NCBI GenBank assembly: GCA_947494995.1 | Contig: CANLWY010000001.1 | Coordinates: forward strand, 1-64,000 | Direction of reading: 5' to 3' | Length of the DNA: 64,000 nucleotides | Origin: an uncultured Campylobacterales bacterium | GTDB lineage: Bacteria; Campylobacterota; Campylobacteria; Campylobacterales; Arcobacteraceae | Shown here: positions 24,317 through 37,679 of the stretch, one piece after another | Position numbering within the stretch: position 1 is the first letter of the stretch | Layout of the letters: each line of letters opens with the position of its first letter | Translations under genes and position numbers: made by a program | Notes under the pieces: model-generated | What the model saw: only the letters and a program-made list of their open reading frames with translations | Database searches by the model: none | Told to the model about the DNA's origin: nothing

Positions 24317-24330
24317 TGAATATTGATTCA
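24317..24330. promoter_or_regulatory. TGAAT-N4-ATTCA palindrome upstream of the response regulator gene
   Basis: TGAATATTGATTCA, 40 nt before the probable ATG at 24371. Confidence 0.45.
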
Positions 24331-24370
24331 TATTATGGTAAAATATTATATATTAATAAAAAGAAAATAT

Positions 24371-25033
24371 ATGAAAATATTAGTATTAGAAGACGATTAT
24401 AGTTATAGAAGTAGTATTAAAGAATATTTAGAAGTTTTAGAATACCAAGTTGATGATTTTGAAAATGGTGATGATGCACTAAATGCTATTTTTGATAATA
24501 AATATGACCTTTTACTTATGGATATTATTGTTCCTAATATAACAGGATATGAAGTTTTAAAAGAAGTAAGAAAACATAATATAGAAGTACCTATCATTTT
24601 AGTAACCTCTCTAACTGATGTTGATGATCTTAGTGTTGGATATGAGCTAGGATGTAATGATTATATAAGAAAACCTTTCTCCTTAAAAGAATTAAAATAT
24701 AGAGTTACTGAAGCAATTAACAGCTTTCACTTTAAATCAAATACAAATAAGATTAAGCTTTATGCAGATTACATGTTTGATTTAGATAATGAAGAATTAA
24801 CTTTAAATGATACCTATATAAAACTAACTCAAGTAGAAACAAAAGTTATAAACTTTCTAATAAGAAGAAGAGGACAGTTTTGCACAACTCAAGATATGAT
24901 TGTATCTATTTGGGATGATGACTTTATTTCAGATGCAGACTTAAGAATGCATATAAAAAGAATAAGAGATAAAACGACAAAAGAGCTTATAATAAACTCA
25001 AGAGGATTAGGATATAAAATTGAAAAATTCTAA
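24371..25033 (+). CDS. OmpR-family response regulator (start probably MKILVLEDD, not 24323)
   Basis: MKILVLEDDYSYRSSI receiver; DLLLMDIIVPNITGYEVL; winged-helix DNA-binding C terminus. Confidence 0.9.
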   Translation: MKILVLEDDYSYRSSIKEYLEVLEYQVDDFENGDDALNAIFDNKYDLLLMDIIVPNITGYEVLKEVRKHNIEVPIILVTSLTDVDDLSVGYELGCNDYIRKPFSLKELKYRVTEAINSFHFKSNTNKIKLYADYMFDLDNEELTLNDTYIKLTQVETKVINFLIRRRGQFCTTQDMIVSIWDDDFISDADLRMHIKRIRDKTTKELIINSRGLGYKIEKF

Positions 25034-26195
25034 TTTATCTATTATCCTATTCTCTTTTTTATTCTCTTTATCAATATCAATAATATTCTCTATTCTTTCA
25101 TATTTCTATATACAAGAGACTATTGAATCCACTGAAGCAAAAGAGAAACATGAAATTGCTTGTTATGCGAACAAAATAACATATCAAACTAAATCAATAG
25201 AAGAGTTGAAAAAAAAGACTTTTGGAACAGTAGAATCTTTTTTATATAAAATGGCTATTATTGATAGAAACCTCAATGTTCTTTATTCTACTTTTGAAAA
25301 AAATCCTTATTATGACATCTCTAGAAAAACATATATTGATGATAATCATATATTCTACAATGATAATAAGTATTTTAGTGATGTAGGAGAAGTTAGAGTA
25401 GTTCTTCAAAAAAATTTAGACTATGATGTAATAAAAAATAAAATCATTATGTTAAGTATAGGTGGTTTATTCTTTTTTCTTATATGCTTTTTTATTCTAT
25501 ATTTTATTATTTCAAAACTATTTATTAATATTAGCGAAGCACTTGATAGATTCTTTAGAAATGCAATTCATGAAATTAGAACACCATTGGGAGTTTTACA
25601 AATCAATTTAGAATTTCTAGAAAATACACTAAAAGATTCTATGGCACTCAAAAGAGCACAAGGAGGTTTGAATAATCTTACAAGTGTATATGAAAGTATT
25701 GAATTTTGTATAAAACACAAAAAAGTATCATTTCCAAAAGAGAATATTGATATTTCACATTTTTTAAAAGCAAGAATTGATTTTTTCAAAGTTCTTGCAG
25801 ATATTAAAGGGATTAAATTAGATACTTCTATAAAAGAAAATATTTTTATGCATATTAGTAGAACAGAAATTCAAAGACTTATAGATAATAACCTATCAAA
25901 CGCTTTAAAATACTCAAAAGAGAATACAACGATTGAAATACAATTAATGCTTAACAAAAATGATATTATTCTAGTTTTTACAAATGAAGGGCAAAAAATT
26001 CCTAATTTTAATAAATTATTTCAACAATTTTATAGAGGGGACAATATAAATAGTGGGTTCGGTTTAGGCTTAGATATTATGATGCATATTTGTACTCAAT
26101 ATAACATAGAAATTGGTGTAAAATCTGAAAAAGGGAAAAACTCATTTTTATATAAAATACCAAATACCTTAAATAAAAGGTTAAAAGATGATTAG
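25020..26195 (+). CDS. Sensor histidine kinase
   Basis: Two TM; FRNAIHEIRTPLGVLQ H box; NNLSNALKYSKENT N box; GFGLGLDIM G box. Confidence 0.9.
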   Translation: MKNSNLSIILFSFLFSLSISIIFSILSYFYIQETIESTEAKEKHEIACYANKITYQTKSIEELKKKTFGTVESFLYKMAIIDRNLNVLYSTFEKNPYYDISRKTYIDDNHIFYNDNKYFSDVGEVRVVLQKNLDYDVIKNKIIMLSIGGLFFFLICFFILYFIISKLFINISEALDRFFRNAIHEIRTPLGVLQINLEFLENTLKDSMALKRAQGGLNNLTSVYESIEFCIKHKKVSFPKENIDISHFLKARIDFFKVLADIKGIKLDTSIKENIFMHISRTEIQRLIDNNLSNALKYSKENTTIEIQLMLNKNDIILVFTNEGQKIPNFNKLFQQFYRGDNINSGFGLGLDIMMHICTQYNIEIGVKSEKGKNSFLYKIPNTLNKRLKDD

Positions 26196-27480
26196 ACTAT
26201 TTTTCATACTTATTTTTTCTTTTTTTATTTTAAATGCTAAATCTTTTATTTTAACACCAGAAGAAAAAAACTGGATAAAAAAACAAAAAACGATTAGAAT
26301 AGGAATTGATTCAAACTTTGCACCTTTTGAATTTATTGATAAAGAAGGTAACTTCAAAGGTATTACAGCTGATTACCTAAAAGAGATGAAAAGAATTATC
26401 AACCGTAGTTTGGACAAAGATTCCAAAATAGAGTTTGATATCATAAAAAACAAACCATGGAATGAAATTATTTCTATGACTAAAGAACATAGTATTGATA
26501 TGTTATCTTGTATTGTAGAAACTCCACAAAGAAGTAATTACTTAGACTATACTTCAATTTATCTTACTTTTCCTATGGTAATAGTAACCAACAAAGAGAC
26601 AGGCTTTATAAATAATATAGAAGAACTAAAAGGTCGATCAGTAGCTGTAATAGACAACTATACTCCCCATGAAATCCTTTCAAAATATGAAGATATATTT
26701 TTAGTAAAAACTGAAAATCTAACTCAAGCTTTAGAATTAGTATCTACAGGAAAAACTTTTGCTCACGTAGGAAACTTATCAAGGGTATCTTTTCTTTTAA
26801 AAGAAAGTGGATTTCAAAATCTTACAATCTCAGGAATTACTAATTATAAATATAACTTTTCTATGGCAGTAAAAAAGGGTGATTATATTCTAAAAAATAT
26901 TATACAAAAATCCTTTGATGCAATCCCACAAGAAATAAAAACAAGTATTTATTATAAATGGTTTCCTTTAGAATTTAAAGAAAAACAAAACTACACTCTA
27001 ATATGGGAGATTCTTTTAGGAGCGTTAATTATAACTTTACTATTATCTTTCTGGGTGTTTAAATTAAATATAAACATAAAAAGAAAAACTATTGATAAAG
27101 AAGTACTTCTAGAAGATAAAAACTGGTTAAACAACTCTTTAAAAACTGCTGGTATTTGTGCATGGCAATGGGATTTAGAACAAAATAAAATCAAAATAAA
27201 TCCAAGTTTTGCAACACTACTTAATCTAGGAGATAAAGAGATTATAATTTCTGTAAAATATTTTAAAAGTCTTATTGAAGAAGAGGATTTATCAACTCTT
27301 TTAACAAATATGGAAAAACACTTTAGCAACAAAGATAAAGCATTTTCATCTATTCTTAGAATTAAAACTGAAGAAAAACATGAAAAAAAGATGGAATTTA
27401 TTGGGGGAATTGATAAAGTAAATATCTTTAATCATCCCAAAACTATTATTGGTATTGCAAAAGAGATTAAAAAAGATTAG
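26188..27480 (+). CDS. SBP_bac_3-type periplasmic domain + TM + PAS-like cytoplasmic domain, no kinase or GGDEF domain
   Basis: IRIGIDSNFAPFEFIDKEGNFKGITADYLKEM; TM at LIWEILLGALIITLLLSFWVF; PAS-like tail. Confidence 0.85.
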   Translation: MIRLFFILIFSFFILNAKSFILTPEEKNWIKKQKTIRIGIDSNFAPFEFIDKEGNFKGITADYLKEMKRIINRSLDKDSKIEFDIIKNKPWNEIISMTKEHSIDMLSCIVETPQRSNYLDYTSIYLTFPMVIVTNKETGFINNIEELKGRSVAVIDNYTPHEILSKYEDIFLVKTENLTQALELVSTGKTFAHVGNLSRVSFLLKESGFQNLTISGITNYKYNFSMAVKKGDYILKNIIQKSFDAIPQEIKTSIYYKWFPLEFKEKQNYTLIWEILLGALIITLLLSFWVFKLNINIKRKTIDKEVLLEDKNWLNNSLKTAGICAWQWDLEQNKIKINPSFATLLNLGDKEIIISVKYFKSLIEEEDLSTLLTNMEKHFSNKDKAFSSILRIKTEEKHEKKMEFIGGIDKVNIFNHPKTIIGIAKEIKKD

Positions 27481-28949
27481 AACATATTTGCTCTAATCTT
27501 TTTATACTTATCTGATTGTAATTTTTCTTTTTGTTGTGAAGTAAGAGGAGAACCTTTAATAACTGTTCCATTTAATAAATCAAGTACTGTATTTGTACTC
27601 TTTTTAGGATTTAAAATAAGTGGATTTTCATGACAAGCTTCACATGATCTTGCATTTTTACTTATTGTATGAGGAGAATAAGGAGTGAAGCCCTCTATTT
27701 TTTTATCTCCTAACTTATGAACATCATCAAAAACCATCTCCCCTTTATCATTTCTATAAGAAATCCTATACTGATAAAAAGGTCTTAAAACTCTTATTTT
27801 ACCATCCTCTGAGTTTCCTAAAAGAAGATGTTCCCATCTTCTAAATCTATAACCACTATACCAAACTCCTTTTTTCATTTTTCCATCCACCCAGTCTGGC
27901 ATATATGGTTCAGGTTCTTTTTTAGCCTTAATTGCCTTTTTTAAAAAGGCTGAAAGATAAGCATCTTCTTGATCTATTAGGTTTTTCCACTTCTTGTAAT
28001 CTTTTGTATCATCCCTAAAAATAGATAATTCATAATTGCTTATTTGCCAAGAGCTATGACAAGCTGAACAAGCTATCTTATCATGATAAGAGTCATGACC
28101 TTCATTTTGACTCAAATTTTTATGACAATTACTACAAGAGGCTCTATTTTTATCAAACATTACCTCATCTTTTTTATGACAGTCTACGCAAGAAAGTCCT
28201 GCTTTATAGTGAATATCTTCACTTAGATTATGATATGAATTCCCATAAGTTGTTTTGGGATATTTTCCTTTTTTTGTAATTGGTGCTTTATAAGCATGGT
28301 CAAAATCTTTAGGGAAAAGTCCTAAATAATCTGTACCCACATAGTTTTTATTATGACAAGAAAGACATGCACTCATAGGAGGTTTTTTTGATAATTTATG
28401 CACCTTAGCATAAGGAGATTTATCTTTAATAGTTAAATCACTTCCTTTATATTTGCCATCAAGTGAATATTCAATATGGCAAGCCATGCAACCTTTCCCT
28501 CTATTCATACCTTTTTCACCGGAACTTTGATTTCCAATATGACACTTCAAGCATTTTCGTCTTAAAAAATCATCACTTAACTCTTCTAAAGTCCTTATAT
28601 CATCTTTTGGAAGTGGTAGAGACTGAAGTGTTCCTAATACCTCTTTTCCTATCCATAAAGATTTAGTTAAACTAATCTCATCTTTTAATGTCACATGGGA
28701 AGATTTTTTAAAACTATGACTATCCTCTTTATGACAAGAAATACAAAATTTATCTACATTTTCAAGTGAGTCTGGATGTAGTACAACATCATCATGAGTA
28801 TAATTATCTCTTTTATTTGGTTCAATATGACAAGCTACACAATCAAAGTTATGATTTTCTTCATCAAAAGTCTCTATGTTATGACAAGTTTTACAATCTT
28901 CTGCAAAAAGAAAAATAGAAAAACACAAAAACAATACTATTTTAAACAT
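27477..28949 (-). CDS. Secreted decaheme c-type cytochrome
   Basis: Signal peptide and 10 CXXCH motifs counted in the translation. Confidence 0.9.
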   Translation of the reverse strand: MFKIVLFLCFSIFLFAEDCKTCHNIETFDEENHNFDCVACHIEPNKRDNYTHDDVVLHPDSLENVDKFCISCHKEDSHSFKKSSHVTLKDEISLTKSLWIGKEVLGTLQSLPLPKDDIRTLEELSDDFLRRKCLKCHIGNQSSGEKGMNRGKGCMACHIEYSLDGKYKGSDLTIKDKSPYAKVHKLSKKPPMSACLSCHNKNYVGTDYLGLFPKDFDHAYKAPITKKGKYPKTTYGNSYHNLSEDIHYKAGLSCVDCHKKDEVMFDKNRASCSNCHKNLSQNEGHDSYHDKIACSACHSSWQISNYELSIFRDDTKDYKKWKNLIDQEDAYLSAFLKKAIKAKKEPEPYMPDWVDGKMKKGVWYSGYRFRRWEHLLLGNSEDGKIRVLRPFYQYRISYRNDKGEMVFDDVHKLGDKKIEGFTPYSPHTISKNARSCEACHENPLILNPKKSTNTVLDLLNGTVIKGSPLTSQQKEKLQSDKYKKIRANMF

Positions 28950-30676
28950 GATGTTTTTCCTTCATCAAATAAAAGCTTTGACTTCTCAAAATCTTCATAT
29001 ATCTTATCATCATACTCTCTATGACAAAGAATACACTTGTAAGCTTCTATCACTCTATTTAACTCCTCTTTATTAAAACTTCTAGCTTTTTCTCTAGAAG
29101 TTGTTTGGAATTGTTTCCCTTCTAATGATACAAAAGCATCTATGGGATAATCAAAATCCATTCCACTTTTTGAGGAGTTATAAAAAGGTGAAAAACTAAC
29201 TTTATCTTTTTCTATTTTTAAATTTCCACGTCCTAATCCCAAACTTGCAGGGTCAATATGACAATCTACACAAGTTCTAGCTTTTCCTGTAGTATGAGGA
29301 TCCCATCCAGCCATCGCCATTGCATGAAACTGCTCTATTTCTTTATCTTTAAATACTGTTCCAATCACTTGACATCCTGGTGCAAATGGCATGATTTTTT
29401 CATTATAACCAATACCTAAAGAGGGAGATTCAAACCGTAAAAAACTTCTAAACTCCATCCACTTTCCATCTGTCATCTCTTTTTTAACCCAATCATACTG
29501 TTTTCCATTTTCAAAATATACTTCATGGCAACCATAACAACTAGCCATCCATTGAGTATGACAAGCTGAACAATCTAATCTTTCATGAATAGAAGAGTTA
29601 TGATATGGCTTATCACTCATTTTTGTTAAATCAAATGCTTTTCCATCTCTTTTTCTATAAAACTTTACTTCATCTTCTTCATTTTTTTGAAGATTATAAA
29701 TTGGAGCATTTTTCCTTTCACTATAGGCTATACTTTCTGGCATTGGCATTGTTCCATTCAAAGTAAGAAGTTTTTCTGCAAGAGTATCAGGAAGCATTGT
29801 TTTAAACTTGGCATCATGACAATCAGTACACTTAATATCTACTGCATCTTCCATATGTATATTTTTTCTACCATCTCCCATTACACCAATTTCTGTATGA
29901 CAATCAATACAATCAAGACCAGCTTTTTCATGGTGAACATCAGCAGGTAGTTCATAATAAAACCTTGTAGAATCTAACTTATTAGTAAACTCACCTTTTT
30001 TATATGGCGTACCATAACCTTCACTCTCAAATTTTCCAAAATATGAAGTTCCAATTCTATTAGATCTATTGTGGCACTTTAAACAGGTTTTTGAAGGTAT
30101 TCGTGTAGTAAACTTAGTATGTTTTCCTTCTTCTTTTTCCTCAACTCTATGACAATTAGCACAACCTCCCCCTTTTGCCAAAGATTTATCATGAAATATA
30201 TCTTCATCTTGATTAATATGACAAGAGGCACAAGCTTTTGCAAAATGGCTATTAGCTAACTCTTCTGCGAACTCTTTATTATCAAGTCCTGTAGATTTTT
30301 CTACCCATTGTTCTTGTAAAACATGTTTAATTCCTCTTTGATTCTCCATAGGACTCATCTTAATTCTATGTATAATATCACTATGACAACTTCCACAATA
30401 TTTATCTGCATGTTCTAGACGTGAAGGGTTTTTTACCATTGCTACATGAGCAGATTCTTTAGTCGTTGCAAGTTGATTTCCTCCATGACACGAGGCACAA
30501 CCAAAAAGTTCTACAGGATGAGAGTTATCTATACTTTGATAACTACTATGACATGACATACATTGATCAGGAGAACTTCTAACAACTCTTGGTTTTTCTA
30601 ACTGCTTAAAGACAAAAACAAAAATTAAAAAAGTTGATACTATTGCTAATAGTTTATATAAAGATGAGATACGCAT
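28937..30676 (-). CDS. Dodecaheme c-type cytochrome with N-terminal TM anchor (start probably MRISSLYK at 30676)
   Basis: 12 CXXCH motifs counted; N-terminal hydrophobic helix. Confidence 0.9.
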   Translation of the reverse strand: MRISSLYKLLAIVSTFLIFVFVFKQLEKPRVVRSSPDQCMSCHSSYQSIDNSHPVELFGCASCHGGNQLATTKESAHVAMVKNPSRLEHADKYCGSCHSDIIHRIKMSPMENQRGIKHVLQEQWVEKSTGLDNKEFAEELANSHFAKACASCHINQDEDIFHDKSLAKGGGCANCHRVEEKEEGKHTKFTTRIPSKTCLKCHNRSNRIGTSYFGKFESEGYGTPYKKGEFTNKLDSTRFYYELPADVHHEKAGLDCIDCHTEIGVMGDGRKNIHMEDAVDIKCTDCHDAKFKTMLPDTLAEKLLTLNGTMPMPESIAYSERKNAPIYNLQKNEEDEVKFYRKRDGKAFDLTKMSDKPYHNSSIHERLDCSACHTQWMASCYGCHEVYFENGKQYDWVKKEMTDGKWMEFRSFLRFESPSLGIGYNEKIMPFAPGCQVIGTVFKDKEIEQFHAMAMAGWDPHTTGKARTCVDCHIDPASLGLGRGNLKIEKDKVSFSPFYNSSKSGMDFDYPIDAFVSLEGKQFQTTSREKARSFNKEELNRVIEAYKCILCHREYDDKIYEDFEKSKLLFDEGKTSCLK

Positions 30677-31448
30677 AAAAAGCCGTCCATAAAAGTAATA
30701 AATAATTAATAGTTTTTCTATATTTTTCAAAATAAAAATATGTAACTAACAACATAAAAGGAAAAGTAATCACTAAATCCACTAGAAGAGTTGAAACTCC
30801 TTTTACAAGAAGATTTTCTGCTCCTTTGAAAAACCAAGGACCAGTAACATGAACTAAAGTTAAATTGATATCCAAGTCTTGTGGCATAGTGAAAATCATC
30901 ATAACCAGAACTGTAAGCCCAAGAGCTATAATAAAATATTTTGTTTTTAGTTTACCAATATGTTTATAGATAGCAAAAGCAAGTAAAATTGGTAGAAATA
31001 AAATATGCCAAATATAAAATTTCCAGACAAATAGACTATTATCTTCAAATAAAAATATAAACCACTCTAATACTGGCGTCTGCTTTATAAGTGAGAGGGC
31101 TACTTCACCAGCTGAGAGCCCATTTAAATCTGCTTTTAAAACATATCCTGTGAACATTAAAAAAAATAAAACTAATGTAGCTAAAACAGAATAATTCCAA
31201 GAAGTCTCTGAGATTTTAACTTTTAGTTTTAGAAGTTCTAAAATAATATGTAAGATTAAAAAAAGAACAAACAGCTCTGAGCTAAAATAGTGTATTTGTC
31301 TAAAAATATTTCCATAAGGTACTAAGTAAGTAATAGTTTGAACACTTTCATAAGCATTAAAAGGTTTATAAATAAATGCTAAAATAAGTCCACTTAACAT
31401 ACTTACATTAAAAAGTGCTAAACATATCCATGAAATAACTATTGCCAC
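30654..31448 (-). CDS. b6-type cytochrome b subunit of a Rieske/cytochrome b complex
   Basis: His pairs spaced 14 (HYFSSELFVLFLILH) and 15 (HILFLPILLAFAIYKH); multiple TM. Confidence 0.87.
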   Translation of the reverse strand: MAIVISWICLALFNVSMLSGLILAFIYKPFNAYESVQTITYLVPYGNIFRQIHYFSSELFVLFLILHIILELLKLKVKISETSWNYSVLATLVLFFLMFTGYVLKADLNGLSAGEVALSLIKQTPVLEWFIFLFEDNSLFVWKFYIWHILFLPILLAFAIYKHIGKLKTKYFIIALGLTVLVMMIFTMPQDLDINLTLVHVTGPWFFKGAENLLVKGVSTLLVDLVITFPFMLLVTYFYFEKYRKTINYLLLLWTAFYAYLIFI

Positions 31449-31452
31449 TTTA

Positions 31453-31854
31453 TCAACCTATATATAAAAGTGAGTCTTTAATTTTAAAACTTAGCATATC
31501 CAAGTCCCTTTTTGCAGGACCTTTGAGCCTTTTGCCATTAAAATCAAATTCACTGTCATGACAAGGACAAACAAATTTTTGATTCTTATCATCAATATTT
31601 AATCCACATCCTAAGTGAGTACATTTAGAATTAAAAACATAGATATTTTCATCCTCTTTTCTAATAAAAACATTTGGGTATTTACTTATGGAGCTTGTTA
31701 GTTCACTTAAAGGGATAATTAAAGAGTCTTTTGGATTCTCTTCAAAACTTGTGAACTTATATAAAGGATAAAGGAAAGCCCCTCCTCCTATAAAAGGAAG
31801 AGCTTTTACAAAATTTTTTAATATTTTTCTTCTTTTAGGATTAACATCCTTCAA
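31453..31854 (-). CDS. Rieske [2Fe-2S] protein (TTG start proposed at 31854, AGGA SD)
   Basis: CTHLGC and CPCH boxes; single N-terminal TM/TAT-like RRKILKNFVKALPFIGGGAF. Confidence 0.9.
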   Translation of the reverse strand: MKDVNPKRRKILKNFVKALPFIGGGAFLYPLYKFTSFEENPKDSLIIPLSELTSSISKYPNVFIRKEDENIYVFNSKCTHLGCGLNIDDKNQKFVCPCHDSEFDFNGKRLKGPAKRDLDMLSFKIKDSLLYIG

Positions 31855-32197
31855 GTTGCACTGGTCCTGCATCAGCACTTGGTCCATCCTCTGCTTTTGA
31901 TTGTTCAACAACTGTACCAAACTCTGGAATCTCTCCATCATCAGCTAATCTTTGGACAATATCATTATAGTTTGCCCAAGCTAACCTATCCCAACTATTT
32001 GCTTGAATAGCTTTTTTAGCATAAGCTTGTGCTAAAGGTACATTATCCTCTTCTAATGCTTCTCTTGATAAATTAATATACTTTTCACATAATGCTTTGT
32101 TCATCTTGTATTCTTGAGTACTAGAAGCACTTAGATTTTGATAACCTATAAACAATAATACTAAAAGGCTTAATATAAATAATCCACTCTTTCTCAT
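31841..32197 (-). CDS. Small secreted protein of the operon, helical repeat-like
   Basis: Signal peptide; EDNVPLAQAYAKKAIQANSWDRLAWANYNDIV TPR-like. Confidence 0.7.
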   Translation of the reverse strand: MRKSGLFILSLLVLLFIGYQNLSASSTQEYKMNKALCEKYINLSREALEEDNVPLAQAYAKKAIQANSWDRLAWANYNDIVQRLADDGEIPEFGTVVEQSKAEDGPSADAGPVQLEGC

Positions 32198-32212
32198 TTC
32201 TCTTTCTCCTTA

Positions 32213-32800
32213 CTAAAATAGTGTTATATAATAAACATTAGGTTTTGCACCTTCTGCTTCTTTTAATCTTTTAATAGAAGTTGCATCCCTTAATAGTTTT
32301 GAAACTTCACTATTCTCATCATTTAAATCTCCAAAAACTCTAGAGTTTCCAACACATGTATTAACACATGCTGGATCTAAACCTTGAAGTACTCGTGGTA
32401 AACAGAATGTACACTTATCTACAGTTTTTGCCTCTTCATCATAGTATCTTGCATTATAAGTACAAGCTACCATACATGCTTTACACCCAATACACATATC
32501 AGGTTCTACTAAAACAATACCATCTTCTTCTCTTTTAAAACTAGCTCCTGTAGGACAAACATCTACACAAGCAGCATTATCACAATGATTACATAGTACT
32601 GGTAGAAACTCTACTTTAGCTTTCCCAAATCTATTAGTACTTTCAACTTCAAATACTCTTGTTCTATATGCTTCTTTTAAAGCAGGAACATCCCACTCTG
32701 TTTTACAAGCAACATAACAAGCATCACAACCTATACATCTATCTGCAACAATTACCATTGCTAGGTTTCTATCTTTTTTTAACGTATTAATTACACCCAT
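32213..32800 (-). CDS. 4x[4Fe-4S] ferredoxin subunit (PsrB/PhsB/NrfC-like)
   Basis: CIGCDACYVACK, CNHCDNAACVDVCPTGA, CIGCKACMVAC, CTFC..CVNTC. Confidence 0.93.
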   Translation of the reverse strand: MGVINTLKKDRNLAMVIVADRCIGCDACYVACKTEWDVPALKEAYRTRVFEVESTNRFGKAKVEFLPVLCNHCDNAACVDVCPTGASFKREEDGIVLVEPDMCIGCKACMVACTYNARYYDEEAKTVDKCTFCLPRVLQGLDPACVNTCVGNSRVFGDLNDENSEVSKLLRDATSIKRLKEAEGAKPNVYYITLF

Positions 32801-32811
32801 GATAACACCTC

Positions 32812-35064
32812 TTAAACTTTTTTAATGGTTACAAAACCATTATTAAACCCACAAGCTCCACTTAATGGATCAATATCATGACTACAGAAGTTTGTATCAC
32901 TAATACCTACATTAAAACCAATAGACCATGCTTTTGTAATATGTCCAAATCCATGATGTATAAATACCGTTTGTTCTTTAATTCTATCCGTAATCTTTAT
33001 AATATGAGCCTGTGACTCAAAACCTGTTTTCACATTTTTGATTTTTACTTTATCTTCATCTTTTAATCCAAGTTTTTTTGCATCTTTAGTATTTATCCAA
33101 AGAGGATTGTTTCCATGAACCTCCATTAAAATCCAGTTGTTTTGTGATCTTGCATGAGAGTGATTCGGGGCTCTACCCATTAATAATCTAAACTCATTTC
33201 CTTTTGGCATCTTTGGATCACTATAAATTGGAAGAGGAGAATATTCATCTCCTTTTTCTTTATATAACTCTTCAAAATCAGGAACATACAATTGAATTTT
33301 TCTAGTTGTTGTACTAAATCTTAATCTCTTACCTTCTGCATGATGATATGGATTAATATCATTAAATACTAATGTTCCGTCTTTTTCAAGTTTCTCTCTT
33401 TGATTAGGTTCTAGATGTTCTAAAAACTCTTGAGTAAACTGCGTAGGAGATTTTTCAAAATACTCTTCCACTCCAAACTTCTCTGCAATTCCTTTACAAA
33501 TATCAAACACATGCTTGGTATCATATATAGGATCTATTGCCGCTTTTCTAAGTGCGACAAGAGGAATTGCATCTTTTTGTATTAATGGAATATCATCTCT
33601 TTCTAAATATGTTGATTCAGGAAGAACAATATCTGCATAAAAAGCACTATCACTTAATTGAGTATCAATAGCCATAATAAAATCTACATTTGCCATTGCT
33701 TCAAAAAGTTTTCCATTTTCAGTTGCACCATGTTGTAAAGGGTTAGTTGCATACAGTAACCAAGCTTTAATTGGATATGGATCTTGAGTTAAAGTTGCTT
33801 CATAAAGCTTATCTGCAATTCCTAAGTTTAATGGAGCAAAAGGATAAAGTGTTCCTGCTCCATCAGCTCTTTGTACTTGAGGTTCTGAAGGATGCTCTTC
33901 ATGTGGTTTTTCAACTGGAGGTTTACTTCTAATAAACTGACCACCTGGAACTCCAACATTCCCCATGAGAGCATTTAAAATAGCAATTGCTCTTACTGTT
34001 TGAACATCATTTCCATATCTTGAGATTCTTCTTGGAGGAATTGCAATAACATTTGGTGCATCTTTGGCAAACTCCCATGCTATCTCTTCAATCTCTTTTG
34101 CTTTTATTCCTGTTTTATTTTCAGCCCACTTTGGAGTATACTGTTTTACATGTTCATGTAGTTCATTATATCCATAGCAATATTTTCTAACAAAATCTAA
34201 ATCTGCAAGATTATCTCTTAGAATTACATGTATCATTGCTAATGCTAAAGCCATATCAGTTCCAGGATTAACCTGTAACCACCTATGTGCAGTTGCAGCA
34301 GTTTCAGAACATCTTGGATCAATATAAGTTAATTTTGCACCATTTGCTAAACCTTCTACAAATCTTTCAGCCTCACCTACATGTACTGCACCAGCTAAGT
34401 TTCTTCCAAATACCAACATATGTTTAGTATTTGCCATATCATAAACCTCGTGTCCACTAACTCCAAAACCAAATGTTTTAGACCAAGCAATTTCACGAGA
34501 GCCTACACATTGAGAATAAGATGGGACAACAACATTTGGTGTTCCTAATGCAAAGGCTAAGGTATGAGCATACCTTTCGCCAGTTCCGTGCATAAAAGTA
34601 GCTAGTGTCTCTTCTCCATACTCTTCAAAAAGTCCACTTAATTTTTCATGAATATGAGTAAAGGCTTCATCCCAAGTGATTTTTTTCCATTTACCCTCAC
34701 CTCTTTTACCAACTCTTAAAAGTGGATATTGAACTCTATCTGGATCATATGTTGATTGAATACCTGCATTACCTTTAGCACAAAGTTTTCCATAATTGTT
34801 TGGATTTATTTTATTACCTTCAAGTTTTTTTATTCGTCCATCTTTTGTATAAACATCTACTCCACACTTCCAAAAACACATTTCACAGTAACTTGGAGTT
34901 TTTACTCCTCTTTCATAAGAAAAGTGTCTCATTCCTTTTACTGATTCTTGTTCTTTTGAAGCTTTCATTGGAGAGGGTAATCCAAATACACCTGCACCAC
35001 CTGCAATACTTGTAACTCCTGCAAGTTTTAAAAAACCTCTTCTTGATATATGTGTATTTCTCAT
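32812..35064 (-). CDS. Molybdopterin oxidoreductase catalytic subunit (PsrA/PhsA-like), TAT substrate
   Basis: SRRGFLKLAG TAT motif; CEMCFWKCGVDV...GKLCAKG Fe-S; SQCVG Mo-ligand-region Cys. Confidence 0.93.
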   Translation of the reverse strand: MRNTHISRRGFLKLAGVTSIAGGAGVFGLPSPMKASKEQESVKGMRHFSYERGVKTPSYCEMCFWKCGVDVYTKDGRIKKLEGNKINPNNYGKLCAKGNAGIQSTYDPDRVQYPLLRVGKRGEGKWKKITWDEAFTHIHEKLSGLFEEYGEETLATFMHGTGERYAHTLAFALGTPNVVVPSYSQCVGSREIAWSKTFGFGVSGHEVYDMANTKHMLVFGRNLAGAVHVGEAERFVEGLANGAKLTYIDPRCSETAATAHRWLQVNPGTDMALALAMIHVILRDNLADLDFVRKYCYGYNELHEHVKQYTPKWAENKTGIKAKEIEEIAWEFAKDAPNVIAIPPRRISRYGNDVQTVRAIAILNALMGNVGVPGGQFIRSKPPVEKPHEEHPSEPQVQRADGAGTLYPFAPLNLGIADKLYEATLTQDPYPIKAWLLYATNPLQHGATENGKLFEAMANVDFIMAIDTQLSDSAFYADIVLPESTYLERDDIPLIQKDAIPLVALRKAAIDPIYDTKHVFDICKGIAEKFGVEEYFEKSPTQFTQEFLEHLEPNQREKLEKDGTLVFNDINPYHHAEGKRLRFSTTTRKIQLYVPDFEELYKEKGDEYSPLPIYSDPKMPKGNEFRLLMGRAPNHSHARSQNNWILMEVHGNNPLWINTKDAKKLGLKDEDKVKIKNVKTGFESQAHIIKITDRIKEQTVFIHHGFGHITKAWSIGFNVGISDTNFCSHDIDPLSGACGFNNGFVTIKKV

Positions 35065-35065
35065 C

Positions 35066-36208
35066 TTAATCCTCCTCATTCATTGGTAAGTATCTATTTC
35101 CAATCTCATAAATAAGCATAGTAAGACCAATAGCACCAATAAATATAGATATTTCTGCTAATGTTGGAAAGTAAGTACCCACTTCAATTTTCTCTAAAAA
35201 TGTTGATTCCACTTTTATTAATTGTCCACCAATAATTGAGTTATATCTTGAGAAAAATACACCTATAAGGGCACATGCCCCTGCAGCTGCTACAAAAGGA
35301 AGAGATTTAAACTTTCCTATAAATAGTAAAGCAAGTGGAACTATTACTCCTATAATTATCTCAAAAAAGATATAGTTAAACTGTAAAGGACCATGAATAA
35401 CAAGATCCATACTATCAGATAATGTACTATTTCCATAAGAAGTAATAATTGCCGTCCATATATGAATAAATGATGAAGCAATAAGTAAGAACATAATCAT
35501 TTTACTAATTGCACTAATACTCTCTATTCTATTTGGTTCTTTATCTTTTCTAAGAAATAGTAAAAGAATTGCAACAGCTCCACCACAAATTAAAGCACCT
35601 AATATAAATGAGATTGTAAACTGTGATGTATGCCATAATGGTTTTGCTGCATTTACTGCAAATACCATAGATAAGGTACTATAAGCCATAATTCCTATAA
35701 TAAAACCAACAATACCTGCATAAAAAGTTGATTTTTTATCTCTTCTTAACAGTAGATATATTTCTAATGCTAAAAGAGGTGTCTCAAAAACATAAAATGT
35801 TGACATCCACCAAATTGGTGAAGTTAACTCAAAATTTAAATAATACTTTACAAATCTAAAAATCTGTAATTCAAAAGGTCCTCCAAGTTCCCAGAAAATT
35901 AGAAAAAATGCAGCAATCAAAGAAGAAAATGATAATAATGCAATATGTCTACTTCTAATATGGAACTTTTCAAACTTAAATACATGTGATAAAGTTGCAA
36001 TAACAGAAAGACCTACACTAATTCCTACAAAAAAAGCATAACCAACCAATAATAACCCAAAAGGAACCTCCCTAGACACGCCATAACTATGTTCTTGTCC
36101 ATGAAAGAATACTTGAGCTATTCCATATATACTAATAGTGAAAATAATAAAAGCCATAATGATATATGCCCCATTATTATTACGTTGTAATATAATTTTA
36201 CCTTGCAT
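35066..36208 (-). CDS. NrfD/PsrC family membrane subunit (start probably MQGKIIL at 36208)
   Basis: Polytopic; GVSREVPFGLLLVGYAFFVGISVGLSVIATLSHVF. Confidence 0.9.
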   Translation of the reverse strand: MQGKIILQRNNNGAYIIMAFIIFTISIYGIAQVFFHGQEHSYGVSREVPFGLLLVGYAFFVGISVGLSVIATLSHVFKFEKFHIRSRHIALLSFSSLIAAFFLIFWELGGPFELQIFRFVKYYLNFELTSPIWWMSTFYVFETPLLALEIYLLLRRDKKSTFYAGIVGFIIGIMAYSTLSMVFAVNAAKPLWHTSQFTISFILGALICGGAVAILLLFLRKDKEPNRIESISAISKMIMFLLIASSFIHIWTAIITSYGNSTLSDSMDLVIHGPLQFNYIFFEIIIGVIVPLALLFIGKFKSLPFVAAAGACALIGVFFSRYNSIIGGQLIKVESTFLEKIEVGTYFPTLAEISIFIGAIGLTMLIYEIGNRYLPMNEED

Positions 36209-36212
36209 TATA

Positions 36213-36755
36213 TTATCTCCTTTTACTAAGCTCTTTAAAGAAATCAAGTTCATCTTTTAGAATTAATACTATCTTTGAGTATAAACCTAAACTTGAGGCT
36301 TCATTTAAAGAAATCTCGAATTTATCTAACCAATTTAAATATTTATTCATAAATATTAAAGCTCTTTCATACTCCTTTTGTTCCAAAAGAATTGCAACAA
36401 AAGAACACATAAGAGATATATGGTCTTGTGGTAAATTTACATTTTGTAAATCAACAATAAAACCACTCTCTTTATAAAAAACATTTATTTTAATAAAAGT
36501 TTTTCCCATCATTTTCCCATCTATCCACCATGAAGCATTGGGAACAGTTTTATTTGAAGACGAATTTATACTAAACAGCTGTATGTATTCTGACTCCAAT
36601 AACTCAAGAGACAATGAGAAGTTTTCTAACTCCTCATTACCTACAAGCTCTCCAAGATATCTCATGCTCTCAGGAATATCCTCATTAGGATAATTAAAAG
36701 CTTTTGCACATAAGTCAAGAATTGATATAGCTTTAGATATTCTTTGAGCATTCAT
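36213..36755 (-). CDS. TorD/DmsD-like molybdoenzyme chaperone
   Basis: LELLESEYIQLFSINSSSNKTVPNASWW ... DHISLMCSFVAILLEQKEY; position in operon. Confidence 0.8.
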   Translation of the reverse strand: MNAQRISKAISILDLCAKAFNYPNEDIPESMRYLGELVGNEELENFSLSLELLESEYIQLFSINSSSNKTVPNASWWIDGKMMGKTFIKINVFYKESGFIVDLQNVNLPQDHISLMCSFVAILLEQKEYERALIFMNKYLNWLDKFEISLNEASSLGLYSKIVLILKDELDFFKELSKRR

Positions 36756-36758
36756 ATA

Positions 36759-37679
36759 TTAAATATCACCTTTTACAAGTTTTCTTTTAGGCATTCTTGT
36801 ATAATCAATCATTGAACCATCATATACTTTTGCATTTTGTACGCCTGCTAAATATTTACCTGCAAACCAAGCTCCTGATGCATACCATCCTGAATTGCAA
36901 TACCAAATTATTGGATCTTTAAGATTTACCTTTGCAGCTTCAACAGTTGCTTTTGCACCTTGTGCATCTAAATATGTAACACCATCAACTACTTTTGTAT
37001 AATTCCCAACAAATAGTGCTTTAGCACCAGGTAAATGTCCTTTTTTAAGAACTTTTTTGTGTTTATCAGTTCCATTTACGTGTACAGTTGGTCTTGTATC
37101 AACTAATTGTGCTGTTTGAATTTCTACTGCAGAATCAATATCACCAATATTGGCAACATTTTCAATATTCATATTAGTAATCTTCCAATTAGTTTTTTTA
37201 GGTTTAACTTTTTTATTATCAACGGCATTACCTGCTTTTTCCCATGCTGCAAATCCACCATTTAAAATAGCTGTATTTTTAATACCATAATATTCAGAGA
37301 CAAATACACCAAGCCCAGCAATTGTATAACTATCATTTTCTTTTCCATCAGAATAGAAAACAATTGCACTATCTTTTGTTACTCCACTTTTTTTCATTAG
37401 CCTTGTAAAAGTTAATGGCGCACCAATATATCCAGGAACATCCTTATATCTTGTCTCTCTAAAATCTTTTACTGCCCACTTAATTGCACCTGGAATATGA
37501 GATTTAGAATACGCTTTCTCATCTTTTCTAATATCAACAATAACTAAATCTTTATCCGCCATATTAGTTTTAAGCCATGTTGCATCCACTAACTTATTAT
37601 TTGGTAAGTCTAATGCAAACGAAGAAATCGCACATATACTTGAGGCTACCAACACTCCTAAAATTTTACTTTTTAACAT
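36759..37679 (-). CDS. Periplasmic two-domain sulfurtransferase (rhodanese)
   Basis: Signal peptide; two rhodanese domains; WYCNSGWYASGAWFAGKYLAG active-site loop. Confidence 0.9.
   Translation of the reverse strand: MLKSKILGVLVASSICAISSFALDLPNNKLVDATWLKTNMADKDLVIVDIRKDEKAYSKSHIPGAIKWAVKDFRETRYKDVPGYIGAPLTFTRLMKKSGVTKDSAIVFYSDGKENDSYTIAGLGVFVSEYYGIKNTAILNGGFAAWEKAGNAVDNKKVKPKKTNWKITNMNIENVANIGDIDSAVEIQTAQLVDTRPTVHVNGTDKHKKVLKKGHLPGAKALFVGNYTKVVDGVTYLDAQGAKATVEAAKVNLKDPIIWYCNSGWYASGAWFAGKYLAGVQNAKVYDGSMIDYTRMPKRKLVKGDI

Follow-up and report, generated by a model that had tools for sequence, protein, structure and literature searches.

What do ten tightly packed genes accomplish together when they join a molybdoenzyme of the Psr/Phs type to a Rieske protein, a cytochrome b and two multiheme cytochromes? 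Such a run occupies positions 27477-37679, minus strand, of a 64,000-nucleotide stretch from an uncultured Campylobacterales bacterium (contig CANLWY010000001.1, assembly GCA_947494995.1), referred to below as the window. We hold, with moderate confidence and from comparative sequence analysis, that the ten genes would constitute one functional periplasmic respiratory unit for sulfane-sulfur compounds, i.e., thiosulfate, polysulfide or a close relative.

Architecture of the operon

A sequence-only reading had described this locus as ten co-oriented, tightly packed genes, and this description is borne out. All open reading frames (ORFs) lie at the expected positions in a single orientation and touch or overlap, with intergenic distances of -101 to +15 nucleotides (nt); non-overlapping neighbours are spaced by 3-15 nt, and the biggest overlaps are a product of start-codon choice. 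A terminator-like hairpin (27470..27503, minus strand), a pattern match only, closes the run. Pfam and NCBIfam domain calls agree with the earlier family assignments, the small secreted protein having no family match.

In order of transcription, the upstream genes encode a periplasmic two-domain rhodanese (36759..37679; Pfam/NCBIfam) with the active-site Cys261 (YCNSG) in its second domain, a TorD/NarJ-type chaperone (36213..36755; PF02613), an NrfD/PsrC quinone-reactive membrane subunit with about eight transmembrane segments by hydropathy (35066..36253; PF03916), a Psr/Phs-lineage catalytic subunit with molybdenum-bis(pyranopterin guanine dinucleotide) (Mo-bisPGD) and a twin-arginine translocation (Tat) signal (32812..35079), a 4x[4Fe-4S] electron-transfer subunit of the PsrB type (32213..32800; Pfam/NCBIfam) and a small secreted TPR-like protein (31841..32197). 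They are followed by a Rieske [2Fe-2S] protein (31453..31941; PF00355), whose true start is probably further downstream, a small diheme cytochrome b (30654..31448), a membrane-anchored 12-heme cytochrome (28937..30676) and a secreted 10-heme, ExtN/ExtM-like cytochrome (27477..28949; NCBIfam). The start of the 12-heme gene is more likely at 30676, where an ATG precedes the membrane anchor, than at that of the longer ORF (28937-30730).

The scanned region contains 49 promoter-like sites against 54.9 in shuffled sequences, and internal promoters splitting the halves were rejected since such sites are no commoner than expected by chance. A second terminator-like stem (31806-31775) falls inside the Rieske coding sequence.

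Conservation and co-occurrence across Campylobacterota

The ten-gene operon is conserved, though rare, rather than a local accident. The synteny that the earlier reading proposed to look for was found among 398 Campylobacterota genomes, its gene order being kept across at least four families at roughly 40-80% identity. The clade of the molybdenum (Mo) subunit (E <= 1e-150) occurs in seven of these genomes, where gene order is mostly complete and where the 12-heme gene is strongly matched at the same locus in every case (7/7). Five genomes have the small cytochrome b (E < 1e-60), always inside the ten-gene operon (5/5); weaker matches are conventional 400-aa cytochromes b, and a separate conventional bc1-type cytochrome b is present in all 12 genomes tested. 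Fisher tests over the 398 genomes, uncorrected for phylogeny, associate the Mo subunit with the small cytochrome b (p = 2.6e-10) and with the 12-heme protein (p = 1.2e-13). Operon loci, which carry our own L numbers as the genomes carry G numbers, include that of Sulfurospirillum sp. UBA6810 (L034; TorD unmatched) and those of Campylobacteraceae metagenome-assembled genomes (MAGs; L035-L039), some truncated at contig ends, and additional full or partial copies are found at L145-L148. The copies at L035 and L037 differ and lie on separate contigs of a single MAG (JALSKH01), reflecting either a duplication or a binning mixture.

Within the phylum, the small cytochrome b is thus never without the Mo half (5/5), nor the Mo clade without the cytochrome pair (7/7), as expected if the two halves form one unit, and separate occurrence as a rule is not seen there. 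Outside the phylum the halves do occur apart, since the ext or 'bc complex' cluster of Geobacter was described without PsrABC (PMC5877670, PMC2825233). An alternative is that two independent systems share one locus: PsrABC would act on a single sulfur compound, while general periplasmic electron transfer would fall to a quinol:cytochrome reductase of the ExtMNOP type. This alternative, which we consider unlikely, accounts well for the solitary ext half of Geobacter (PMC2825233), for cytochrome pairs without Psr at L028, L029, L143 and L144, and for the divergent transcription at L147, where TorD-NrfD-MoA-FeS-Gly-Cys genes face away from Rieske-cytb-12-heme-8-heme genes. It fits less well with L147 still holding both halves at a single locus after rearrangement, with a small cytochrome b that is never apart from the Mo half in Campylobacterota, and with a cytochrome pair accompanied by the rhodanese and the small secreted protein in both contexts. 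The L147 halves share an intergenic region of about 200 bp, and the Psr half there has no rhodanese match.

Two known modules

The upstream half comprises all parts of PsrABC/PhsABC, a PsrA/PhsA-lineage Mo-bisPGD enzyme, a four-cluster iron-sulfur (FeS) protein and NrfD. It resembles the systems of Wolinella, Salmonella, Thermus (2vpw) and Desulfurivibrio dismutans in these subunits, in the Tat signal and in a periplasmic sulfurtransferase, a rhodanese being known from the psr operon of D. dismutans (PMC12142623). Unlike them, the operon adds the small secreted protein, the Rieske protein, cytochrome b and two multiheme cytochromes. The Mo subunit scores 503 bits against NCBIfam PhsA and does not reach the equivalog cut-off of 694, and therefore belongs to the Psr/Phs lineage but not to PhsA as NCBIfam defines it; its closest PDB match is the Thermus Psr (2vpw, 499 bits). 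Its placement among PsrA, PhsA, SrrA, ArrA and TtrA, which had been called for, is partly achieved: in a tree that omits SrrA and Wolinella PsrA, the operon sequences form a clade (100/100) that groups with Thermus and Chondrinema (97/97), is nearer to these than to the host's canonical PsrA, and stands apart from both that clade and Salmonella PhsA, long branches being flagged. In Chondrinema, the nearest named relative outside the phylum, the gene order is MoA-FeS-NrfD-YeeE-YeeE-rhodanese-rhodanese. A selenocysteine suspected from one TGA in the Mo subunit of G026/G063 was rejected, the TGA being an ordinary terminal stop. The host's canonical psrABC (L087, C1:300000-312000) lies beside a flavocytochrome-like pair and a b/c-type cytochrome ORF, and this region also holds a 395-aa ORF that may encode a rhodanese.

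Counterparts of ExtM, ExtN, ExtO, ExtP and the rhodanese ExtH are found together in the operon. In Geobacter, extHIJKLMNOPQS encodes a rhodanese, a porin, a 104-aa protein, a 5-heme selenoprotein, the 12-heme ExtM, the 10-heme ExtN, the Rieske protein ExtO and the cytochrome b ExtP (PMC5877670); the set was called the bc-complex cluster and is conserved in the six Geobacter genomes compared (PMC2825233). Because the downstream half matches this set in parts and heme counts, the "hybrid" is, by homology, the union of two known modules, PsrABC and an ExtMNOP-type set described chiefly in Geobacter. The window operon differs from the ext cluster by the addition of PsrABC and TorD; the porin ExtI, the selenoprotein ExtKL and ExtQ/S have no counterparts among the ten ORFs, and flanking ORFs are unrelated. 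Scores against NCBIfam models (bits/cut-off) are 268/800 for ExtM, 97/200 for ExtN, 78/290 for ExtP and 65/200 for ExtH. All are well below equivalog cut-offs, so the window proteins are Ext homologues and not family members as defined. NF040968, a model of 416 positions named Rieske-type ExtO, aligns with the multiheme cytochromes where the ExtN model does, but does not match the Rieske protein of the window; it may be mislabelled.

The names of the ExtM, ExtN, ExtP and ExtH models evoke selenite and tellurite respiration, in which the Mo enzyme would reduce selenite in the manner of SrrA, with selenium oxyanion reduction also served by the ExtMNOP half. SrrA falls within the PsrA/PhsA lineage (PMC7331816), and deletion of extI in Geobacter lowers selenite and tellurite reduction (PMC5877670). 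Nevertheless, we judge this explanation quite improbable: the Ext scores are far under the cut-offs, the sole mutant phenotype in that study is that of ExtI, a porin without equivalent in the operon, the Mo subunit has no selenocysteine, and relatives of the small secreted protein, the rhodanese and YeeE accompany Sox thiosulfate genes.

The two modules also bring two different kinds of putative quinone site into one respiratory unit, NrfD and the Rieske/diheme cytochrome b. The Rieske cluster ligands C107, H109, C125 and H128 and the four heme histidines of cytochrome b (53, 67, 148 and 163) are invariant, and the quinol-oxidation (Qo) loop of the latter reads (G/S)PWF where PEWY is usual. 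Systematic variants of PEWY are known, and redox potential and quinone type reportedly covary with its second residue (PMC9162462).

No published account of the ten-gene combination was found in the literature searched, most subscription journals being outside reach. Neither module is new, but their stable union, the family of the small secreted protein and the Psr-free cytochrome cassettes discussed below are undescribed in that literature, and sulfur respiration may thus be wired in a manner absent from it.

A putative sulfur carrier

Alignment of 13 homologues of the small secreted protein revealed Gly-Cys as the last two residues in all of them, preceded by a tail of variable length and sequence. 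The AlphaFold model shows TPR-like hairpins and a low-confidence tail. Foldseek returned mostly TPR-like matches, none significant; NCBIfam and Pfam scans gave nothing consistent, and the SoxY domain PF13501 was not matched in the Pfam scan. Like SoxY, the protein is periplasmic and has a flexible C-terminal tail with a conserved Cys at its end. It differs in its TPR-like helical fold and in ending with EGC or MGC(I), whereas SoxY ends with GGCGG. By analogy, the Gly-Cys protein is a candidate for a periplasmic sulfur carrier whose fold is not related to that of SoxY.

Relatives ending with MGC or MGCI adjoin YeeE/YedE pairs and Sox genes at L081 and L082, and a relative at L085 adjoins YeeE and a rhodanese. 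These sets share the Gly-Cys family and the rhodanese with the operon, and have YeeE/YedE where the operon has the Mo enzyme and Rieske/cytochrome b. Because the Gly-Cys family, YeeE/YedE and the rhodanese sit in Sox clusters and in Psr-free cassettes, genomic context argues for sulfane sulfur more than for selenium. The rhodanese Cys261 is invariant across all operon copies. In G061, the operon rhodanese (L026 15316-16215) shares 61% identity with that genome's YeeE-linked rhodanese (L085 5935-6831) but only 32-34% with the rhodaneses of other Psr operons, which probably reflects a gene replacement. The neighbouring sulfate-assimilation operon, earlier taken as a hint of sulfur metabolism, carries no weight as a substrate clue and was rejected, its homologues being absent beside the other operon loci compared.

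Natural variants and the role of the cytochromes

Two loci, L030 and L031, keep eight operon genes, including the cytochromes, and lack those for the Rieske protein and cytochrome b. The absence is probably a loss, since in the Mo tree both are sister to L025 (100/100), which carries both genes. As these two genomes retain the cytochromes, Rieske/cytochrome b is dispensable. The suggestion that the system couples two quinone reactions therefore survives in part: NrfD and the Rieske/diheme cytochrome b are intact and the idea fits, but the coupling is not obligatory.

Conversely, cassettes at L029, L143 and L144 consist of YeeE-YeeE-Gly-Cys-rhodanese-12-heme genes followed by an 8-heme cytochrome gene, represented in L143 by a 5-heme open frame only. 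Psr and Rieske/cytochrome b are both absent from these cassettes, and that of L144 adjoins a gene resembling that of sulfide:quinone reductase (SQR). The cytochromes thus accompany sulfur-trafficking genes even without the other modules, which does not support viewing the heme reservoir of the earlier reading as a passive one. The 12-heme proteins of these cassettes and of L028 cluster together (99/100). In L028 (1379-11216), 12-heme and 8-heme genes without Psr or Rieske/cytochrome b directly follow genes that, read by eye, resemble complex-I-like membrane/hydrogenase-type subunits. Substitution of the cytochrome pair for SoxCD in Psr-free genomes was considered and rejected, SoxC being present in G096, G308, G409 and G442 (4/4).

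The 22 heme motifs reported earlier were recovered in the window as 12 and 10 CxxCH motifs, but 22 is not a conserved number, since the last cytochrome has 8 hemes, the conserved core, rather than 10 in 7 of 12 aligned sequences. Invariant candidate distal His residues, within the limits of the alignment, number only 8 for the 12 hemes of the first cytochrome and 4 for the 8 core hemes of the second; as they are fewer than the hemes, some hemes may have other or open ligation. The 12-heme protein also has two invariant non-heme cysteines, Cys453 (APGCQV) and Cys595 (numbering of ORF 28937-30730), the former also found in two of three distant paralogues. A study of cable bacteria names ExtN as potentially catalytic (PMC11976967), in keeping with other or open heme ligation. 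A PDB sequence search with the cytochromes yielded no significant relatives, and no plasmid relatives of the 12-heme protein were found. The host genome encodes a second 12-heme cytochrome (L149 7209-12280; G000:C2:277208-282279), an 800-aa distant ExtM relative followed by lipoprotein-like, thioredoxin-like and Tat-signal flavoprotein-like ORFs; 12-heme proteins of similar length occur widely in the phylum.

Tentatively, and with more doubt than conviction, we raise the possibility that the 12-heme/8-10-heme pair itself acts as an oxidoreductase for sulfane sulfur, with the Gly-Cys carrier and the rhodanese serving it; its partner would be the YeeE importer in one lineage and PsrABC plus Rieske/cytochrome b in another. 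In that case, the ext cluster of Geobacter would be fundamentally a sulfur system, and the phenotype with selenite a secondary effect. Few cytochromes are conserved across all six Geobacter genomes compared, and those of ext are among them (PMC2825233). The Campylobacterota variants, with or without Psr, Rieske/cytochrome b and YeeE, make the role of these cytochromes testable, and their common partners point to sulfur.

Proposed mechanism and direction of electron flow

From the observed parts, synteny, co-occurrence and conserved residues, we infer a sulfur hand-over, an electron path, a direction and a substrate. The Psr/Phs-lineage Mo enzyme is encoded with its FeS, NrfD and chaperone partners, a periplasmic rhodanese and the Gly-Cys protein. 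In a manner resembling the SoxY arm, the rhodanese and the Gly-Cys tail would pass sulfane sulfur as a persulfide to the Mo site, the cytochromes or both. Electrons from menaquinol would travel from NrfD by way of the FeS subunit to the Mo site, where the S-S bond would be cut reductively. The Rieske protein, diheme cytochrome b and the 12-heme and 10-heme cytochromes make up an Ext-type 'bc' module, a presumptive second menaquinol outlet through the Rieske protein into the cytochrome pair, which could finish the sulfur redox work (e.g., on a sulfite product) or connect to other periplasmic carriers.

As to direction, we lean slightly towards reduction, because the operon is also present in genomes without Sox (G026, G063, G302 and G105). 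An oxidative role is conceivable because the host genome and several others have full Sox: PsrABC would run in reverse, oxidizing sulfide or polysulfide into menaquinone, and nitrate or oxygen respiration would receive the electrons by way of Rieske/cytochrome b and the cytochrome pair. For Epsilonproteobacteria it was suggested that Psr can work in reverse as a sulfide dehydrogenase (PMC6896113), and both the presence of SoxB, SoxC and SoxY in the host and many operon-bearing genomes and the SQR-like neighbour at L144 agree with an oxidative role. We regard this scenario as doubtful, given the Sox-free genomes and given that the onward electron path is not essential, as two genomes lacking Rieske/cytochrome b retain all other genes.

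Beyond these Sox genes, several points weigh against our preferred interpretation of a reductive sulfane-sulfur unit. The genomes come from one phylum and are statistically non-independent by kinship, the Mo tree lacks the two sequences named above, NCBI names the Ext homologues for selenite and tellurite, and the AlphaFold model of the 12-heme protein (pLDDT 48) gives an unusable fold.

Neighbouring regulatory genes

Convergent to the operon, genes for a response regulator, a histidine kinase and an SBP_bac_3 sensor (24323..27480, plus strand; Pfam) probably encode its dedicated regulator. All three have homologues next to the operon in L034, and in L035 the response regulator and kinase have theirs upstream of it.

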